Shown one piece after another: positions 39,630 through 51,119 of a DNA stretch of 64,000 nt; position 1 is the first letter of the stretch, and every line of letters begins with the position of its first letter. Both the position numbers and the translations under genes were made by a program. Where the stretch lies: assembly GCA_021604145.1 (NCBI GenBank), contig BQIX01000001.1, positions 124,001 through 188,000 on the forward strand, in the 5' to 3' direction. The notes under the pieces were generated by a model. It saw nothing but the letters and a program-made list of their open reading frames with translations. It made no database searches and was not told where the DNA came from. Origin of the DNA: Nitrospirales bacterium. Lineage in GTDB: Bacteria; Nitrospirota; Nitrospiria; Nitrospirales; UBA8639.

Positions 39630-40892
39630 TTAATCGTTGAGTTTCCCAGTTAACTGTTCGAGTGCCGTTAGAGCAACCGATAGTTCATGTTTGGCTCGCA
39701 TGTATTCGAGTTGAGTTTCTCTAAACACGCGTTGAGCATCTAAGACTTCCAGCAAGCTCGCCTCTCCGTACCTAAAACTGACTTGCGCAATTCGCAAGGC
39801 TTCTTGTGCTTGTTTAAGAAGCCCGTTTTCATATGTTGAAATTTGAGCCGCTGCGATGTTGGATTTTTGAGTTTCTTGAATAATGCCTTGGTGTAGACTT
39901 GTGCGTGTTCGAAGAAGAATCGCCTCCTCTTGACGCATGACGCCTTTGGCTTTGGCAATTTCTCCTTGACGTTGATTCCATAAAGGAATCGGAATGGAAA
40001 TGCCTCCGACAAAGGCTTCTCGTCCTACATCCCGCTGATAACTTCCACTAAGTGTGATGTTTGGCACTCGCGCATGAAGTTCTCGACGATGCCGTTTTTC
40101 AGCTTCCTTGACGCGTTCTTGCCCTTTTACCAATTTCGGATGAGTCGATAATGTTTGTTTCGAAAACTTCGTGAAATCTAGGTCACCTTCTGAAGAGAGA
40201 AACTCTCCCTGTATCGTAAACTCCTCACCTAATCCTCCGGCAGTTAAACTATTCAATGTGGCTTTTGCCGATCGTTCTGCCCCTTCCGTCCGAAGCAATT
40301 CTTTGAGAATTTTTAAGGTCTCAACGTTCGTCTTGATGACCTCAAACGGTGGCGATTCTCCAGCCTTGACTCGAGCGTGCACCGCTGTTTTCAATTTTTT
40401 CATGGCTTGGACATTTTGTTTGATGAGCGCTGTCTCGTGTTGCGAGAGCAATAAATCAAAGAACACTTTTTTGGTGTGCGCGATAACGTTCAGTTTGGCA
40501 TCTTCTACCCCGGCTTGCGCACTCTTTACACTTGCTTGAGCGGCTTGTTGTTGAGCAATGCGTGTGCCTGGCCATTCCAATGGTTGACTGAGTGTGACGT
40601 ATCGCTCCGTGATGGTCGTGTTCATAGAGGGGTCCCTTAAGGAGCCTCGACCACTATGCACAACAATCGTAGGATTGGAATACGCTGATGCCGACAGTGT
40701 GTTCCCTTGTTTTTGTTCAACAATCCCATGTTCTTCTTCGATACGTGGGTTGCGTTCCAAGGCAATGGAAAGAATCTCAGGAAGATTATAAGTCTCAGTG
40801 TTTGGACTGGACCTCTCAACCTGACCTTTTGCTGCCACCGTTTGCAATCCACTCATGAGGAGGAGCATGAGAAGAATGTTCATCACAACCAT
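39630..40892 (-). CDS. czcC: TolC-family outer membrane protein (CzcC-like)
   Basis: 'LPEILSIALERNPRIEEEHGIVEQKQGNTLSASAYSNPTIVVHSGRG', OEP repeat architecture, downstream of czcA/czcB homologues. Confidence 0.88.
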   Translation of the reverse strand: MVVMNILLMLLLMSGLQTVAAKGQVERSSPNTETYNLPEILSIALERNPRIEEEHGIVEQKQGNTLSASAYSNPTIVVHSGRGSLRDPSMNTTITERYVTLSQPLEWPGTRIAQQQAAQASVKSAQAGVEDAKLNVIAHTKKVFFDLLLSQHETALIKQNVQAMKKLKTAVHARVKAGESPPFEVIKTNVETLKILKELLRTEGAERSAKATLNSLTAGGLGEEFTIQGEFLSSEGDLDFTKFSKQTLSTHPKLVKGQERVKEAEKRHRRELHARVPNITLSGSYQRDVGREAFVGGISIPIPLWNQRQGEIAKAKGVMRQEEAILLRTRTSLHQGIIQETQKSNIAAAQISTYENGLLKQAQEALRIAQVSFRYGEASLLEVLDAQRVFRETQLEYMRAKHELSVALTALEQLTGKLND

Positions 40893-40926
40893 ATCGTATC
40901 TCCTTCTTTTCTGGTGAATCCGGTCT

Positions 40927-43900
40927 TCATGATTCCGTGACTACGGTATTTAGGTTACGTGAAGTGTCTGCTGACCCGTTAGGTCGACCCATCATGCCGT
41001 ATAGGGATGGTATGACCAATAAGGTCAAAGTGGTTGAGGTGATCAGGCCGCCAATGACGACCGTAGCAAGGGGACGTTGCACTTCGGCTCCCATGCTGGT
41101 CGCGATGGCCATGGGCAAAAACCCAAGGCTGGCCACGAGCGCCGTCATCAGTACTGGTCGAAGTCTATCCAGGGCTCCCTGAATGATGGCCTCGTGAGTG
41201 GAAAACCCTTCTATTTCTAACGTTTGAATTCGACTGACAAGGACGACTCCATTTAAGACCGCGATTCCAAATAGTGCGATGCATCCAATCATCGCAGAAA
41301 TACTGAGAGGAAGCCCGCGAAACCATAATGCAATCAGTCCCCCTGATAATGCGAGTGGGACATTTAAGAAAATTAATAAGGTTAATCGCATAGTGCCAAA
41401 TATGACCGATAAGACCGCAATGATCAGCAGCAACGTGATGGGAATCACAATTGCTAAGCGGTTTGAGGCTTCTTGCAAATGTTGAAATTGTCCGCCCCAT
41501 TCAATGTAGTAGCCGGCCGGAAGCTTGACCGTTTTGTTGACAATCTCTTTTGCTTCGCCGACGAATGACCCGAGGTCTTGGCCTCGAATGTTGGCTTCGA
41601 CGACAAGTCGCCGCTGCACATTTTCACGACTGATTTGTGCCAGACCCTCATCGACACGGATGGAAGCCACCCGTGAAAGCGGTACCAGTTCTCCATGAGT
41701 GGTGGGAAGGAGAATAGTCCCAAGCGCGGCAGGGCCCGCAGACGCGTCATCTGAGAGCCGTACAATCAAGTCAAATCGGCGCTGTCCTTGAAACACGGTG
41801 CCAACCGTTTGTCCGACGCGAGCTGATTCGACAACCGTCAACACATCTTTTGCATTCAGTCCATATCGCCCAATCTGATCACGATCTACGATCACGCGAA
41901 TCCTTGGGACGCCTGTTACCTGTTCCACCTTAATATCTTGGGATCCTGACACTTGTTCGAGTGCGTGTGCGACTCGTTCACCCTGATTCCGTAGTTCCTG
42001 CATGTCCTCGCCAAAAATTTTTACGGCTAAGTCTGATCGAGTCCCGGCAATCAATTCGTTAAAACGCATTTCTATAGGTTGTGTGAATCCCAACCCCACA
42101 CCGGGCACCGCTGTTTCAATCGCCGTCTCCATTTGTGAAATGAGACCTTCTTTCGTTGAGGCTGAGGTCCATGATGAGGGCGGGGCGAGTACCACAAAGA
42201 CATCTGACAACTCAATGCCCATAACATCAGTCGCCACTTCAGGGCTTCCCGTCCTACTGACAACTTGTTGGACCTCAGGAAATTCTCGCAAGGCGCGTTC
42301 CACAGCAAGAGCGGTTTCGACGGATTCGCTCATCGAGATGCTGGGTAATCGCCAGACTTGTATGGCCAGATCTCCTTCTTCTAATTGTGGAAGAAATTCA
42401 ATGCCCAACCGTGATCCAATGAATAAACTGAGCAAAAAGAGTGCAAGCGCGGGAAGAACCACCCAAATTGGTCGCATAAGCGAAAATTGTAGGCACGGTT
42501 GATAGATGGCACGGAGTCGACGAATAAGCCAGGTCGCTTCATGATCGGATTTACCCCGAGCAAACCAATACGCCAAAACTGGAACACCAGCTACGGCAAA
42601 AAATAATGATCCGATGAGAGCAAAAATGACCGTGATCGCCATTGGGCGAAACATTTTTCCCTCTATACCCAAAAGACTGAGAATGGGAATGTACACCAAA
42701 ATAATAATACCGATGGCAAAAACGACAGGACGTAAGACTTCTTTAGCTGCTGCGTGAATCGTCGTAAGTTTTTCTTCAGGAGAACGAGGTTCTCGCGTCC
42801 CGAGTTTTCGCAAAATGTTATCAATCATGACGACTGATCCATCGACAAGGAGACCAAAGTCAATGGCGCCTAAGCTCATGAGATTACCCGAGAGTCCAGC
42901 CTGATACATGCCTGTGACCGCCATGAGCATGGAAAGCGGGATAGCCGTGGCAACAATAAGGCCGGCGCGAAGATCCCCCAGAAACAAAAACAAGATGGCG
43001 ATGACCAACAAGCCTCCTTCTAGAAGATTATTTCGCACTGTTCGTATGACATTCTCTACAAACAGTGTTCGATCATAATAGGGTTCAATCACGATGCCAG
43101 GGGGGAGTGTGGATTGAATGTCTTGAACTTTTTCTTTTACCTTGGTGACCACCTGCTGAGCATTGGCGCCAGCAAGCATTTGTACCATGCCGATGACTGT
43201 TTCACCTTCGCCCATCCGTGTTGCAGCCCCGATACGTAAGGCGGCCCCCTCTTTGACTTCGCCAATATCCTTCACAAATATCGGGACCCCGCCTGGACCA
43301 TGGTCAATCACGATTTTCCCAAGCTCGGCAGTCGTAGTCGCCATCGCCTCACCGGTAATCAGGTAGAGTTCACGTTCATGCTCAATGTAACCACCACCAG
43401 CCAGAGCATTATTCTGTTCAAGTGCGTGAAAGACCTGTTGAAGTGAGAGCTTGAATGCCAGGAGTTTTCCTGGATCAACCATGACTTGGAACTGTTTGGT
43501 TTCGCCTCCCCAGATATTGACTTCGACGACACCCGGCACGGCCTGAAGTCGTCTGGCAATGTCCCACTCCAGGAGGGTTCGGAGCGTCATGGGACTGTAT
43601 GACTCGCCGCGCAGAGTAAATTGATAGACTTCGCCCAAGCCTGTCGTCAGAGGTCCCATCATGGGTTTTCCATAGATAGATGGTATATCTTCAGATGCCT
43701 CAGCTAGACGCTCGTTGACAAGTTGACGAACAAAGAAAGGATCTAAGTCTTCTTCAAAAATTGCCGTGACGGCAGATAACCCATATCGTGAGACTGATCG
43801 AATTTCTTTCAATCCAGGGAGACCGCTTAGCGAGGTTTCAATTGGAAATGTAATGAACTGCTCCACTTCGAGTGGGCCAAGCGCCGATGAACGTGTGAGG

Positions 43901-44043
43901 ATTTGCACTTGCACGGGGGTCAGATCAGGAACGGCATCAACCGTCAGCTTGTCCAACGACCAGACGCCTGTTCCTGTGACGAGGAGTAACGCGATGAGCG
44001 TGAAGAAGCGATAATGAAGAGATAGCGTCAGTAACCGTTCCAT
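40927..44043 (-). CDS. czcA: CzcA-type heavy-metal efflux RND transporter
   Basis: 'TVDAVPDLTPVQVQILTRSSALGPLEVEQFITFPIETSLSGLPGLKEIRSVSRYGLSAVTAIFEEDLD', 'DFGLLVDGSVVMIDN'. Confidence 0.95.
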   Translation of the reverse strand: MERLLTLSLHYRFFTLIALLLVTGTGVWSLDKLTVDAVPDLTPVQVQILTRSSALGPLEVEQFITFPIETSLSGLPGLKEIRSVSRYGLSAVTAIFEEDLDPFFVRQLVNERLAEASEDIPSIYGKPMMGPLTTGLGEVYQFTLRGESYSPMTLRTLLEWDIARRLQAVPGVVEVNIWGGETKQFQVMVDPGKLLAFKLSLQQVFHALEQNNALAGGGYIEHERELYLITGEAMATTTAELGKIVIDHGPGGVPIFVKDIGEVKEGAALRIGAATRMGEGETVIGMVQMLAGANAQQVVTKVKEKVQDIQSTLPPGIVIEPYYDRTLFVENVIRTVRNNLLEGGLLVIAILFLFLGDLRAGLIVATAIPLSMLMAVTGMYQAGLSGNLMSLGAIDFGLLVDGSVVMIDNILRKLGTREPRSPEEKLTTIHAAAKEVLRPVVFAIGIIILVYIPILSLLGIEGKMFRPMAITVIFALIGSLFFAVAGVPVLAYWFARGKSDHEATWLIRRLRAIYQPCLQFSLMRPIWVVLPALALFLLSLFIGSRLGIEFLPQLEEGDLAIQVWRLPSISMSESVETALAVERALREFPEVQQVVSRTGSPEVATDVMGIELSDVFVVLAPPSSWTSASTKEGLISQMETAIETAVPGVGLGFTQPIEMRFNELIAGTRSDLAVKIFGEDMQELRNQGERVAHALEQVSGSQDIKVEQVTGVPRIRVIVDRDQIGRYGLNAKDVLTVVESARVGQTVGTVFQGQRRFDLIVRLSDDASAGPAALGTILLPTTHGELVPLSRVASIRVDEGLAQISRENVQRRLVVEANIRGQDLGSFVGEAKEIVNKTVKLPAGYYIEWGGQFQHLQEASNRLAIVIPITLLLIIAVLSVIFGTMRLTLLIFLNVPLALSGGLIALWFRGLPLSISAMIGCIALFGIAVLNGVVLVSRIQTLEIEGFSTHEAIIQGALDRLRPVLMTALVASLGFLPMAIATSMGAEVQRPLATVVIGGLITSTTLTLLVIPSLYGMMGRPNGSADTSRNLNTVVTES

Positions 44044-44070
44044 ATGGGTGTAAGTAGGGCTGAGTTTCGT

Positions 44071-45246
44071 TTAATGTCCTTCGATCGATCCTTGAAGTAA
44101 TGCATTTTTCAAATCAAACACGCCTTGAGTCACAACTTTGTCACCCAACTGAATGCCTTGTGTAATTTCCACAAGGCCTCCCCCTTCTTGCCCAAGTTCA
44201 ATCAACACAAAGTTGTATCCTGTTTCTTTTTGAACGAAGACTCCGCGTTTGCCTTTCACCATGGTGACTGCCGTATCAGGAATCGACAAGACCGGAAGTT
44301 GTTCATCCAGTAATTGCACGTCGACATATTCATTGGGTTTTAATCGTCCTTGCTGATTGTCGACATCAAGTCGGACCCGTACGGTTCTTGTGGTTTCCTC
44401 TGCCACCGGTGAGATGTAAGCCAATTGGGCTGTGATAGGCTGTCCTCCACGTGGAACGACTTTGCCCTGATCGCCTTCTGAAAATCGACGCGCTTGTTCG
44501 ATTGGGAGATTCGCAAAAACCCAGACCCGACTGGTATCAACAATTTCAAATAATTCTTCCCCCACCGACACCCCTTGTCCTAACACGACTTGTTGATGAG
44601 TGATCGTGCCGCCAAGTGGAGCACGAAGAATATACTTATGGCCTTCCAGATGACTGCCATGTTCAAAGTCATGTAATTCCTTGGGTGTGAGTCCCATATT
44701 CAATAGTTTTTCTCGTACGTGCTGAAAGACGGCTTGTGTTTCGATCGCGGTGCCTTGATCTTCTAGGACACGGCGTTGAGAGACGATATGTTCTTTCACT
44801 AATTGTTTCGTACGAGTGAAATTTTTTTTCGCGACATCTCGTTTCGCTTTGGCGACGAGATATTCTTGAACAAGTTCGTCCAAGATTAAACTTTCAATGG
44901 CGACTAACGGTTGATCTTTCAGCACGTGTTGTCCAAGTTTGCCGGTGAGTTTTTCCACCTGGCCGGGGATGAGTGAAGCGACTTTCGCGACAAGATTCAA
45001 GTCTAACGTGACGTTCCCCGGAGCGGTCACCACATGGGGGGTGAGTCGTTCAATGGCTTCTTCCGTACGTATGCGTTCCCGCGCCTTTGGTGGCACATCG
45101 TCAAGATGAATGCTGGTTTCTGAAGTTGTTGAAGATGCCGGAGCCCTCTCATGGTCAGCCATCACGATGTCTGAGGAGATGTCAGAATTGGTGGGCTCAG
45201 AGCAACCGATAAAAAGAAGCACGGTGAATAACCAAAGTAGATTCAT
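44071..45246 (-). CDS. czcB: CzcB-type RND membrane fusion protein, lipoprotein
   Basis: Lipobox 'LLFIGCSEP'; 'LGQHVLKDQPLVAIESLILDELVQEYLVAKAKRDVAKKNFTRTKQL'. Confidence 0.92.
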   Translation of the reverse strand: MNLLWLFTVLLFIGCSEPTNSDISSDIVMADHERAPASSTTSETSIHLDDVPPKARERIRTEEAIERLTPHVVTAPGNVTLDLNLVAKVASLIPGQVEKLTGKLGQHVLKDQPLVAIESLILDELVQEYLVAKAKRDVAKKNFTRTKQLVKEHIVSQRRVLEDQGTAIETQAVFQHVREKLLNMGLTPKELHDFEHGSHLEGHKYILRAPLGGTITHQQVVLGQGVSVGEELFEIVDTSRVWVFANLPIEQARRFSEGDQGKVVPRGGQPITAQLAYISPVAEETTRTVRVRLDVDNQQGRLKPNEYVDVQLLDEQLPVLSIPDTAVTMVKGKRGVFVQKETGYNFVLIELGQEGGGLVEITQGIQLGDKVVTQGVFDLKNALLQGSIEGH

Positions 45247-45369
45247 AGAAATACTCTTGTCAGTGACTCATGAATAACACGACCTCTTAATAAATTGAAG
45301 AAGGCGCGACAAAATTAGAGGCACGCATGCATGCAATGCACGGTGTCCGGTCATTGAAGGGTGGCGATA

Positions 45370-45846
45370 TTATGCCGAGTGGGTCGGAGGAGGGCGGATA
45401 GGGTTGTGAGAATGTATGAGTCGAATGGGTGGTGCACGTTCCGATGAGAGCTGTAACGAACGTAACGTGGATACGATAGATGAAGACTTATGCACGACTG
45501 GAAGAAAGGTTATTGGCTGATCAATTGTTGTCAAAGAATCATGATAGGACGCACTCAGGATCGAAAATCCTATCTCATCATGGTTGAGGAGATGGGGCTG
45601 AGCATGATCACAGTGGGAATTGTCCTGCGTACCTTTCTGTGCTGGAAAGTCATGGGGGGAATGATGATGATATTCGCACGCAAGATCTTGAGAGAGCACA
45701 GAATGGAACAGCCCTCCATGTTCGTGGGTTTGGCTTCCATGCGCATGATCGGCTTCTGGGTGGATATGGATTAGTGGAAAGGCCACAAGCCACAGCACTA
45801 ACCATGTATGGGCCATGCTTGTTACCAACTGATTGCGAGAAGTCAT
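45370..45846 (-). CDS. Histidine-rich exported small protein (putative metal binding), head of czc operon
   Basis: 'HIHPEADHAHGSQTHEHGGLFHSVLSQDLACEYHHHSPHDFPAQKGTQDNSHCDHAQPHLLNHD' after a hydrophobic leader. Confidence 0.75.
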   Translation of the reverse strand: MTSRNQLVTSMAHTWLVLWLVAFPLIHIHPEADHAHGSQTHEHGGLFHSVLSQDLACEYHHHSPHDFPAQKGTQDNSHCDHAQPHLLNHDEIGFSILSASYHDSLTTIDQPITFLPVVHKSSSIVSTLRSLQLSSERAPPIRLIHSHNPIRPPPTHSA

Positions 45847-46229
45847 TGTGATCATGGTAAACACGTGAATATCTTCAACATAACATATTGTATCATATCA
45901 GCAAACAGTGTTTTGACTATTAACGCGACTCCAATTGGGTGCCGCCGGTATACGTGGACACGATGGCATACTAGGCCACGCGATCTTCACAAACCTTCAA
46001 CGTTGGTGTCTCAATAACCCATCTGACGTCTGGCTTCGAGGTGTCCAAGTCCAGTTACACTTTTGAGGCTGTCCCCAGCGTAATGCTACTTTTATAAAGT
46101 GAATGGGACTGTAGTAACAGTCTTCATTGCTTTGTTGTCCGATAGAACCAGAGGATTCATGGGTTGGCGAGGCGATAAAACATTAATGCAAATGAGCAAA
46201 AATTTCGAGAATGCGTCTACATAATTTCG

Positions 46230-46720
46230 CTATTCATCTTTATCGTTGTGCGTCACATGTAAACTCTTTGTCGCCCATTCACGGAGCTGTTGCCGATCAT
46301 TAGATGAAAGTCGCGCCTCGGGATGAAGAGGAAGATAAAACCAGGGAGGCATTTCCCCTTCGTCGACTTTTTCTGCAATTTCTTTCAATTTCTTTCAATT
46401 TCTTCTCTTTTGCTCTTGCCAGTGTACTGATTCCAGATGGAAAAGTTCAATTCTTTTCGACCTTTTTTGACATCCCATGCGACAAGCCATGATGCAGGAA
46501 GTACCTGGCTATACCAAGGCCACACCGTTTCATGAGAATAGCAGTCATAACAAGCTCGCTTGAGAGTGGATTGAATATGAGGTGGAGAATCGACTTCCTT
46601 GATGATAGCTGGGTTGCTCTGAGTGACAGGGATTAATTGGATAAGCCCAAAGAAGAGGACCGTGAATGCTACACTCGTGAATACACGTTTTTTATCAGTT
46701 TTGTCTTTCTTTGTGATGAC
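46230..46720 (-). pseudogene. Heme-binding-domain (Haem_bd-like) protein, frameshifted at a 10-bp tandem repeat
   Basis: Minus strand: RVFTSVAFTVLFFGLIQLIPVTQSNP...ACYDCYSHETVWPWYSQVLPASWLVAWDVKKGRKELNFSIWNQYTGKSKREEIERN* then another frame KEIAEKVDEGEMPPWFYLPLHPEARLSSNDRQQLREWATKSLHVTHNDKDE*. Confidence 0.85.
46376..46405. repeat. Tandem decanucleotide repeat: CAATTTCTTT CAATTTCTTT CAATTTCTTC
   Basis: Read directly; three adjacent 10-bp units, last with one mismatch. Confidence 0.95.
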
Positions 46721-47966
46721 GGGAGCTAAGGCATCGCGCTGTTTCAGATGCTAACCATGACTCCTCATCAGTTCCAATGACAAATGCAGCAATGTCCGTG
46801 CCGTCTAGACTGATTTTGGCGACACTTCCAGGTGTCAATCCTACTGCAGCCTGGTTGTGCTTTTTATCCAGTTTCAAACCACACCATTCCATTTCTTTAC
46901 ATATTTGTGCGCGAATCTCTGGTGCGCCTTCTCCAATGCCTCCACCAAACACAATCGCGTCGGCTCCACCCAAGACGGCAAGATAGGCGCCAAGATATTT
47001 TCTGATTCGATAACAGAACATATCGATTGCGAGCTTTGATCGCGCATCCTGTTCGTAATTCGCTGCCCGGAGTATTTGGCGCATGTCATTCGTTCGTCCT
47101 GAGACGCCCAAAAGTCCCGAATGTTCATTGAGCCAATTCTGAACACCGATCACTGGAACCTGTTCCTTCTTTACCAAATAACTGATGATGGAGGGATCAA
47201 GGTCTCCTGATCGAGTTCCCATCATGAGTCCCTCGCTGGGTGTAAATCCCATCGAGGTCTCAATAGACTTCCCGAATGCTATTGCGGTCATCGAACAGCC
47301 ATTACCCAATTGCATCGTAATGAGTCGTTGATCATTCAACGTTTTGCCGGTGTGGGTTACATAACTGTCAGCCAACGACGCATGAGCGATTCCGTGAAAT
47401 CCATATCTTCTGATGTGATGCCGTTCAGCAAGTTCATGGGGAATGGCATACGTTGCTGCATACTCAGGCAGTGTGTGATGAAACGTGGTATCAAACACTG
47501 CAACCATTGGCATGGAATCATTCAAAAGTGTTCGTGCACCATGGATTCCAGCCAGACACGCGGGATTATGTAAGGGGGCCAGATCATTCAGTTGTTCGAT
47601 TTCACGTAGTACTTCATCATCAATAACGGTTGATTTAGAAAAGTGATGTCCGCCATGAACGACACGATGACCAACACCCTCTATAAGATCGATATTTAAC
47701 TGCATGTCTCCAGATTGTTGAAGGCGCCTCAAAGAATCAAATATCCACTTGAAAGCCTGTTCATGATTTTCGATGTGGTTGGATGATTGGAAAATGATCT
47801 TTTCTCGTTCTGATATGTCTAAGGAGGCATCAGTTCCTATTCCCTGCAACGTCCCTCGAATCCAGACGCGAGATGTGTCATGGCTTGTTATTGCCTGAGC
47901 GGAGGACATCTCCATGATGCAGAATCTTACGGAAGAACTGCCGCTATTAATAACAAGAATTTTCAT
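46695..47966 (-). CDS. ackA: Acetate kinase
   Basis: 'MKILVINSGSSSVRFCIM', 'VAVFDTTFHHTLPEYAATYAIP', 'RRYGFHGIAHA', 'DAIVFGGGIGEGAPEIR'. Confidence 0.95.
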   Translation of the reverse strand: MKILVINSGSSSVRFCIMEMSSAQAITSHDTSRVWIRGTLQGIGTDASLDISEREKIIFQSSNHIENHEQAFKWIFDSLRRLQQSGDMQLNIDLIEGVGHRVVHGGHHFSKSTVIDDEVLREIEQLNDLAPLHNPACLAGIHGARTLLNDSMPMVAVFDTTFHHTLPEYAATYAIPHELAERHHIRRYGFHGIAHASLADSYVTHTGKTLNDQRLITMQLGNGCSMTAIAFGKSIETSMGFTPSEGLMMGTRSGDLDPSIISYLVKKEQVPVIGVQNWLNEHSGLLGVSGRTNDMRQILRAANYEQDARSKLAIDMFCYRIRKYLGAYLAVLGGADAIVFGGGIGEGAPEIRAQICKEMEWCGLKLDKKHNQAAVGLTPGSVAKISLDGTDIAAFVIGTDEESWLASETARCLSSRHHKERQN

Positions 47967-48401
47967 AACAAGCTCACGCTCCGTTTTACTCATTCATCTC
48001 TCTACGGTTATTGGCAGAGAACATGCACATTCCTGCTTAGAGAAGAATTGAATAATCTGGATACAATAAAAAACAGCACAGACATGCTTCCATTCATTCA
48101 GAAGAAAAGTATAGCAAACATGACGCCAGATAGGATTTATGAAGGGAGCGATATTCAGGGGAAATTTTTAAAGATTTTTTGATTCACTGTGTCGAACCCA
48201 TGTATTTGTGGAAATTTGGGCCAAAGGAAAAATAATCTGATGTGGCAAAAAGCAGCAGGTAGATGTCCATAAGTGTATAAAACTCGTGTATCCAGCTCCA
48301 GATTAGTAGAGTAGTCTGATCCTGATGCCAATAGGTTTGAACAGAACAAAGACACTTATCCTGGTATTCATTTATTGGCTTCTTGATAGAGGTAATCCTT
48401 G

Positions 48402-51119
48402 ATGCGGCCAATCGATTCAACGCAAGTCTCGTGGCATTCGTTGTCGGAACAAGCCGTTCTCGATCAATTACAAACAAACCTAGAAGGACTGAACAACGAA
48501 GAGGTCAAGGTAAGACAACAGTTGTTTGGAATGAATCGCCTGCCAGTTAAGCCGCCACCGACCATTTTTACCATTTTCCTTCATCAATTCTTAAGTCCCC
48601 TTATCTATATCCTGCTTATCGCTGGGGGAATATCCATCGTCATCGGTGAACATACCGATGCTGGGTTCATCTTTGCCATTATCTTGCTGAATGCCGCGCT
48701 TGGCGCATATCAGGAGTGGAGAGCAGAACAAGGTGCCGCAGCCCTGCAATCGCTTCTCAAGATCTACGCTCGGGTTCGTCGACACGGAACTGAAAAAGAG
48801 ATCCCGGCCGAAGAATTAGTTCCTGGAGATATTTGTCTATTGGAGTCGGGCAGTCGAATTCCAGCGGACTTACGCCTCATTGAGACAACAAATTTAGCGG
48901 TCGATGAATCTCTTTTGACAGGGGAGTCCCTGTCAGTCACCAAGGCTACTGCCCCTACCAGTAATTCTGATGTACCTTTAGTCGATCGAATAGGGATGGT
49001 GTATGCGGCAACCACGGTCATGGTTGGAAGAGGGACTGGGATCGTGGTTGAGATCGGCTCTCGAACAGAAGTTGCGCAAATTGCCAAGGTTGTGACAGAG
49101 ACCAAAGAAACCAAACCACCGCTTGTTGTCAGGATGGATCATTTCGCACGAATGATCAGTGTCGGGATTGTCGGAGCATGTATCATCTTGGCCGTTATAG
49201 CCGTGAACAATGGAATCCCACTAACGGAAGTCTTTTTTATGGCCGTCGCACTGGCTGTTTCCGCAATTCCAGAGGGTCTACCAGTTGCGATGACGGTGGC
49301 CTTGTCGGTAGCGACCTCCCGTATGGCCAAACGTCATGTCATTGTGAGAAAGCTCACAGCAGTGGAAGGGTTGGGAAGTTGCACCTTCATTGCCAGTGAC
49401 AAGACTGGAACATTAACCGTCAATCAACAAACCGTAAAAAAGTTGGTCCTACCCACAGGAGAACGTTTTGACGTGAGTGGACAAGGATTCACAGGTGACG
49501 GGAACATCACGGCTCAGGAAGAATCTCAAGACCTTAGTGTGGCATGGCCCCAGTTACAGAGACTTGGAAAAGTCGGCGTGATGTGCAATGAAGCACAATT
49601 GATCAGTGAAAAAGGGGAGTGGGTTCATCATGGCGATGCAGTCGATATTGCCCTGCTAGCCCTTGGATATAAGCTTGGGGCGAATCCTTCGGAGGTGCGA
49701 CGGGCAATACCGATCGTGGGTATTATTCCGTTTGAATCAGAACGTCAATATGCGGCAACATTTTATCGAGAAGAGAATGTTGTACACACTGCCGTCAAGG
49801 GGGCCATGGAAGTTGTTCTTCCCAAATGTTCTCAAATGGCGACACCCACTGGGGATAAACCAATTGAACCTCAGCTTTTGGAAGAGGCAGCTCTTCAATT
49901 AGCCGCAGAGGGGTACCGTGTTTTGGTTTTGGCCGATGGACGTATGGATCCCCATACCCAGAATGGGATGTTCGATGAACAGGATATGCCTCCGTTAACC
50001 GTCTTAGGGCTCATTGGAGCTATTGATCCGCTTCGGTCGGAAGTCAAGGAAGCCGTAGAGCGATGTCGAGGTGCAGGCGTGCAGGTGGCCATGATCACGG
50101 GCGATCATCCTGCAACGGCGCTGTCAATTGCACGTGAGCTTGGTATTGCTTCAACCGAACAGGAAGTGGCAACAGGGCCGCAGTTAATGAAATTAGGATC
50201 GGAGACGATCAGTCAATTTTTTGATTTGATAAAACGAGTCAGAGTGTACGCGCGCATGACCCCATTGCAGAAATATGAAATCGTCGATGCTCTGGTTCAG
50301 CAAGGGCATTTCGTTGCCGTGACTGGAGACGGCGTGAATGACGCACCAGCGCTGAGAAAAGCTCATCTTGGTGTCGCCATGGGATCAGGAACTGATGTGG
50401 CCAAAGACAGTGCGGCGATGATTATCACTGACGATCGGTTTGCGTCGATTGTGGCTGGCATCGAAGAAGGTCGTGTCGCATATGATAACATTCGAAAGGT
50501 CATCGCGCTCCTGATATCGTGCGGAGCGGCAGAAATTATGCTATTTGCTATCGCACTTCTTGCCGGGCTTCCTTTGCCGCTGACAGCGGTGCAACTGCTG
50601 TGGTTGAATCTGATCACCAATGGTCCCCAAGATGTGGCGCTGGCATTTGAAGCCGGTGAAGCCGAGACAATGGCTCGAACGCCAAGGAAACCGACCGACG
50701 GCATCTTCGACAGACTGATGATTCAACAAACTGTCGTCTCAGGGGGTGTCATGGGTCTCGTGGCCTCTGGTGCTTGGTTTTGGTGGCTCACCTCGGGTCT
50801 CGAGGAAGCCGAAGCACGCAATCTTCTTCTGCTACTCATGGTGTTCCTGCAAAACGTCCATGTTTTTAATTGTCGATCGGAGCGTGCATCTGCCTTCCAG
50901 ATTCCTTTACGGAACAATTGGATTTTAATGTTTGGCGTATTCGCCGCCCAGGGTATTCATATCCTTTCTTTGTATATTCCTGTGACACAAAGCATTTTAG
51001 ACGTGTCGCCAGTGACATTTGCTGATTGGGGATCAATTTTTCTCCTCGCATCAACCATTTTAGTCGCCATGGAGGTCTTTAAAGCGATAAACTGGCGAAT
51101 TAGGGGTTCTTCAGCTTAA
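48402..51119 (+). CDS. P-type ATPase, Ca2+/cation-transporting (P2A-like)
   Basis: 'SDKTGTLTVNQQTV', 'DESLLTGESLSVTK', 'VTGDGVNDAPALRKAHLGVAMG', 'AVSAIPEGLPVAMTV'. Confidence 0.95.
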   Translation: MRPIDSTQVSWHSLSEQAVLDQLQTNLEGLNNEEVKVRQQLFGMNRLPVKPPPTIFTIFLHQFLSPLIYILLIAGGISIVIGEHTDAGFIFAIILLNAALGAYQEWRAEQGAAALQSLLKIYARVRRHGTEKEIPAEELVPGDICLLESGSRIPADLRLIETTNLAVDESLLTGESLSVTKATAPTSNSDVPLVDRIGMVYAATTVMVGRGTGIVVEIGSRTEVAQIAKVVTETKETKPPLVVRMDHFARMISVGIVGACIILAVIAVNNGIPLTEVFFMAVALAVSAIPEGLPVAMTVALSVATSRMAKRHVIVRKLTAVEGLGSCTFIASDKTGTLTVNQQTVKKLVLPTGERFDVSGQGFTGDGNITAQEESQDLSVAWPQLQRLGKVGVMCNEAQLISEKGEWVHHGDAVDIALLALGYKLGANPSEVRRAIPIVGIIPFESERQYAATFYREENVVHTAVKGAMEVVLPKCSQMATPTGDKPIEPQLLEEAALQLAAEGYRVLVLADGRMDPHTQNGMFDEQDMPPLTVLGLIGAIDPLRSEVKEAVERCRGAGVQVAMITGDHPATALSIARELGIASTEQEVATGPQLMKLGSETISQFFDLIKRVRVYARMTPLQKYEIVDALVQQGHFVAVTGDGVNDAPALRKAHLGVAMGSGTDVAKDSAAMIITDDRFASIVAGIEEGRVAYDNIRKVIALLISCGAAEIMLFAIALLAGLPLPLTAVQLLWLNLITNGPQDVALAFEAGEAETMARTPRKPTDGIFDRLMIQQTVVSGGVMGLVASGAWFWWLTSGLEEAEARNLLLLLMVFLQNVHVFNCRSERASAFQIPLRNNWILMFGVFAAQGIHILSLYIPVTQSILDVSPVTFADWGSIFLLASTILVAMEVFKAINWRIRGSSA

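Follow-up and report, generated by a model that had tools for sequence, protein, structure and literature searches.

The gene at positions 46230 to 46699 (minus strand) of the window, by which we mean the whole 64-kb stretch of Nitrospirales DNA analyzed here, is very probably an ordinary and fairly young frameshift pseudogene. It lies in a decaying copy of a conserved cluster, in which ackA, a Haem_bd gene, xfp and metal-efflux genes follow one another. The 10-bp tandem array at which the gene breaks is, as judged from the sequence, excluded as a working on/off switch for all the unit states tested. The source assembly is a 4.77-Mb bin of 633 contigs, which is 86% complete and 6.7% contaminated.

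The gene was recognized as that of a membrane-anchored Haem_bd (PF14376) protein, now spread over two frames, from the Pfam matches of both halves, the reading frames and the alignment to three intact homologues. The 5' part, in the upstream frame, matches positions 2-94 of the 133 in the Haem_bd profile (E=2.7e-25, 89.3 bits), and the 3' part, in a different frame, matches positions 92-132 (E=9.3e-12, 45.5 bits), both scores being above the curated cut-off of 27. Since the profile match changes frame at the array, the gene is split there. A single uninterrupted frame with a start does not exist in this copy; a +11 frameshift and a TGA in the array interrupt it, and there is no start codon. 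From the ORF list and the frames, no in-frame ATG, GTG or TTG was found for the gene, and the DNA alignment places the ATG present in all three intact relatives at 46684 to 46699 (minus strand), where the window copy reads ACTGATAAAAAACGTG and has no usable start. The CxxCH heme-attachment motif is also degenerate, reading CYDCY at 46538 to 46552 (minus strand). Its histidine is kept in 28 distinct homologues, which were chosen independently of the motif, and in three further family members whose neighboring motif is WPE, WPS or WPG; a tyrosine occurs only in the window copy. Among the homologues compared, this copy alone has thus exchanged the histidine for tyrosine and lost the ATG.

Because the heme motif reads CYDCY, the start codon is missing and the frame is broken, a working heme protein is not expected from the window gene. 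The start loss, the His-to-Tyr change, the +11 frameshift relative to intact relatives and the conserved gene order together identify it as a frameshift pseudogene. The original prediction had described a Haem_bd gene broken at the array, with CYDCY in place of CxxCH and no ATG, GTG or TTG start, and all of these points agree with the profile matches, the homologue comparison and the ORF list. Its view that the inactivation looks fixed also stands, as the lost histidine ligand and the lost start accompany the break. Among solved structures the only match was a weak one, with a probable cytochrome c peroxidase, and no paper naming PF14376 or NPIRA02 was found in the literature search. In another genome (G031, L005:1384-1818, minus strand), the GREELNFS motif of a same-family Haem_bd homologue contains an in-frame TGA, and there is no array; this is possibly an independent gene loss or an error.

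The array itself, delimited by TRF, the frame scan and the alignment, occupies positions 46376 to 46404. It is 29 nt long with a period of 10 and consists of 2.9 perfect copies (100% matches) of CAATTTCTTT on the plus strand, or AAAGAAATTG on the minus strand. As predicted, this perfect repeat sits where the Haem_bd gene switches frame. Its TRF score is the highest in the window, no other exact run of at least 12 matches with periods 4 to 30 was found elsewhere in the window, and no comparable run occurred in 12 Markov-2 simulated 64-kb sequences having the same trinucleotide make-up as the window. The array is the source of the TGA in frame and, combined with one more nucleotide, of the +11 frameshift. 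The alignment suggests that this additional nucleotide probably lies in the run of four A's adjoining the array, just upstream of it on the minus strand (46408 to 46411).

Comparison with intact relatives indicates how the break arose. Contig C79 of the same assembly carries an intact second Haem_bd copy that is 75% identical to the window copy. Two genus relatives, which correspond to the public Nitrospirales MAGs OFTM51 (G002, JAJDBM010000062) and NPIRA02 (G004, BQIV01000022), also have intact copies. In the DNA alignment none of these three copies has the array, and each is exactly 11 nt shorter at that place; the difference falls between the NQY and DEGE codons, and the flanking coding blocks are equal in length. 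Since the intact copies are shorter by 11 and not 20 nt, the difference corresponds to a single added 10-bp unit and 1 nt. The protein at the array site is KKLKEI in all three intact copies, and in NPIRA02 its codons are AGAAATTGAAAGAAATT, which amounts to about 1.7 units of the 10-mer within an intact gene. Among five genomes of the genus, the 17-mer two-unit precursor was found only in this intact gene and in the window array, where it occurs twice with overlap. As NPIRA02 has the precursor in the form of normal codons, a single tandem duplication is the likely origin of the array. No examined relative has more than about 1.7 units, and no array was found in the Haem_bd homologues of related species. 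In the relative G001, ackA adjoins xfp with no Haem_bd gene detected between them, and no Haem_bd match was found in the genus relative G003, so that the gene seems to be dispensable in the genus.

In the frame scan, states of 1-13 units were checked for the frame of the C-terminal half and for any stop ahead of it. With one unit the gene is open, and with two it is out of frame. With 4, 7, 10 or 13 units the far side is in frame, but there is a TGA inside the array; a TGA in fact precedes the C-terminal half whenever at least three units are present. No open state was therefore found among 2-13 units. The TGA is unavoidable at three or more units because the 10-bp unit is then read in all three phases, one of which holds a TGA. 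The claim that adding one unit would reopen the frame is thus false. Removing two units, which had also been proposed, does give an open frame, but it does not restore the ancestral state, from which the relatives tell a difference of +11 nt and not +20. Moreover, the one-unit state has nothing to slip on, because a single unit is no longer a tandem repeat. A change in repeat number does not toggle the open frame, as only one unit leaves it open, and a reversible switch is therefore excluded for all the states tested.

These results bear directly on the proposal of a contingency locus. A live locus, at which slipped-strand changes of unit number reversibly toggle the heme protein, would agree with a perfect tandem array that lies in coding sequence and has units of a length not divisible by 3. 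We nevertheless consider it most improbable, because only the one-unit state is open of the 1-13 tested, the array is missing from relatives, and both the start codon and the heme ligand are also lost. In addition, its 2.9 copies are just below the lenient cut-off of a phasome survey, which required at least 3 copies of units of 5 to 9 bp, the longest that it screened (PMC5953494). It would be equally surprising if the gene were a former contingency locus that decayed afterwards: the array is present, and the other decay could have followed or accompanied it, but no examined relative exceeds about 1.7 units encoding KKLKEI, and none of the multi-unit states tested leaves the frame open. There is likewise very little chance that the 10-bp tract still varies in the living population, with a minority of cells having other unit numbers. 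If it did, a switching role would still depend on a non-standard start codon and on the missing heme ligand being tolerated.

It also has to be considered that the gene works and that its frameshift stems from faulty assembly or sequencing, since the bin consists of 633 contigs with 6.7% contamination and indels adjoining A runs are a common type of error. This explanation is very unlikely, as common reads are longer than the 29-nt array, and neither the lost start nor the His-to-Tyr change nor the loss of xfp depends on the array. The intact second copy raises a related point, because C79 may come from another strain, given the contamination of the bin. The verdict of a pseudogene is unlikely to change with the origin of C79 or with the reads, since neither bears on the lost start or on the tyrosine in the heme motif.

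The surroundings of the pseudogene were compared in the same way. The upstream gene of the operon, ackA (acetate kinase; 46695 to 47993, minus strand), is open and full length according to its Pfam match (PF00871, 1.1e-119) and a four-way comparison, and it is the conserved neighbor in OFTM51, NPIRA02 and C79. The order on C79 is ackA, Haem_bd, xfp, small protein, CusB and CusA; NPIRA02 has the same order plus two extra genes before xfp, and OFTM51 has ackA, Haem_bd and xfp. In the window, blastn breakpoints and the Pfam XFP match define a junction of about 455 bp (45818 to 46272) in place of the approximately 2.7 kb that hold the phosphoketolase gene (xfp) in C79. No xfp remnant was found in the junction, and xfp copies exist elsewhere in the assembly at C1:324159 (the same contig), at C2:61824 and on C79. 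Next comes the small protein that follows xfp in relatives and adjoins the metal-efflux genes (45370 to 45864, minus strand; 81% identical to the C79 copy and 45-49% to the NPIRA02 copy). The cluster ends with the CusB/HlyD-like and CusA/AcrB-like efflux genes (40927 to 45246, minus strand), assigned by Pfam, whose proteins are 93-96% identical to those on C79.

Within the junction, at 45918 to 46057 (minus strand), there is a copy of a dispersed intergenic repeat of about 140 bp, recognized from its copies across assemblies, which starts with CTGGACTTGGACACC and ends with TTGGATTCGC. The repeat occurs in 10 places in its own assembly, 13 in G003 and 1, weakly, in OFTM51, with none in G001 and NPIRA02. 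Its ends are fairly sharp, no Rfam match was found in 45000-49000, and it may be a small non-autonomous mobile element. When positions 40438-45817 were compared with C79:1-5378 (L038), the efflux DNA was 92% identical, and the stretch of ackA and Haem_bd was about 78% identical; this mosaic points to gene conversion, transfer or a mixture of strains. The cation P-type ATPase gene adjoining ackA (48399-51119, plus strand) is only about 40% identical to its counterparts in OFTM51 and NPIRA02, a pair that shares 79% identity, and because of this difference that flank may likewise have been exchanged.

The substitutions bear on the timing of the loss. The pairwise values against C79 are dN 0.094 and dS 0.87; since this dN/dS is low, the gene was constrained for most of its history, and such long prior selection means that its loss is recent and does not speak against the loss itself. 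Private amino-acid changes versus private synonymous codons number 6 to 2 in the window copy and 1 to 3 on C79, and this excess, in small numbers, hints at relaxed constraint. Redundancy with the intact copy on C79, in the same bin, would have relaxed the selection. We infer the following order of events. The KKLKEI codons were able to form almost two 10-bp units, and slippage or tandem duplication would have added one unit to this near two-unit stretch. The added unit and a further 1-nt insertion would give the net +11 nt, the frameshift and the in-frame TGA; the heme-ligating histidine changed to tyrosine, the start codon was lost and the neighboring xfp was removed.

The analysis removes a false lead, as the array resembles a phase-variation switch while the frame scan and the relatives indicate one-way gene death. 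It also provides a small, clear example of an inactivating duplication seeded by codons that by chance amount to a 10-bp unit in two near-copies, in a degrading copy of a conserved cluster for carbon metabolism and metal efflux. When compared with other Haem_bd (PF14376) proteins, the window gene has the N-terminal hydrophobic segment and the C-terminal GEMPPW...LHPEA motif, but it differs in CYDCY, the missing start and the broken frame. It shares with the phase-variable loci of Neisseria and Haemophilus a tandem unit that is not divisible by three within coding sequence, whereas here there are fewer than 3 copies, no multi-unit state is open, the relatives are without the array and other fixed lesions are present. 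With bacterial frameshift pseudogenes that arose through a short tandem duplication it shares an extra 10-bp unit beside a near-duplicate that was already there, and decay around it, and nothing beyond the particular sequence sets this gene apart from them.
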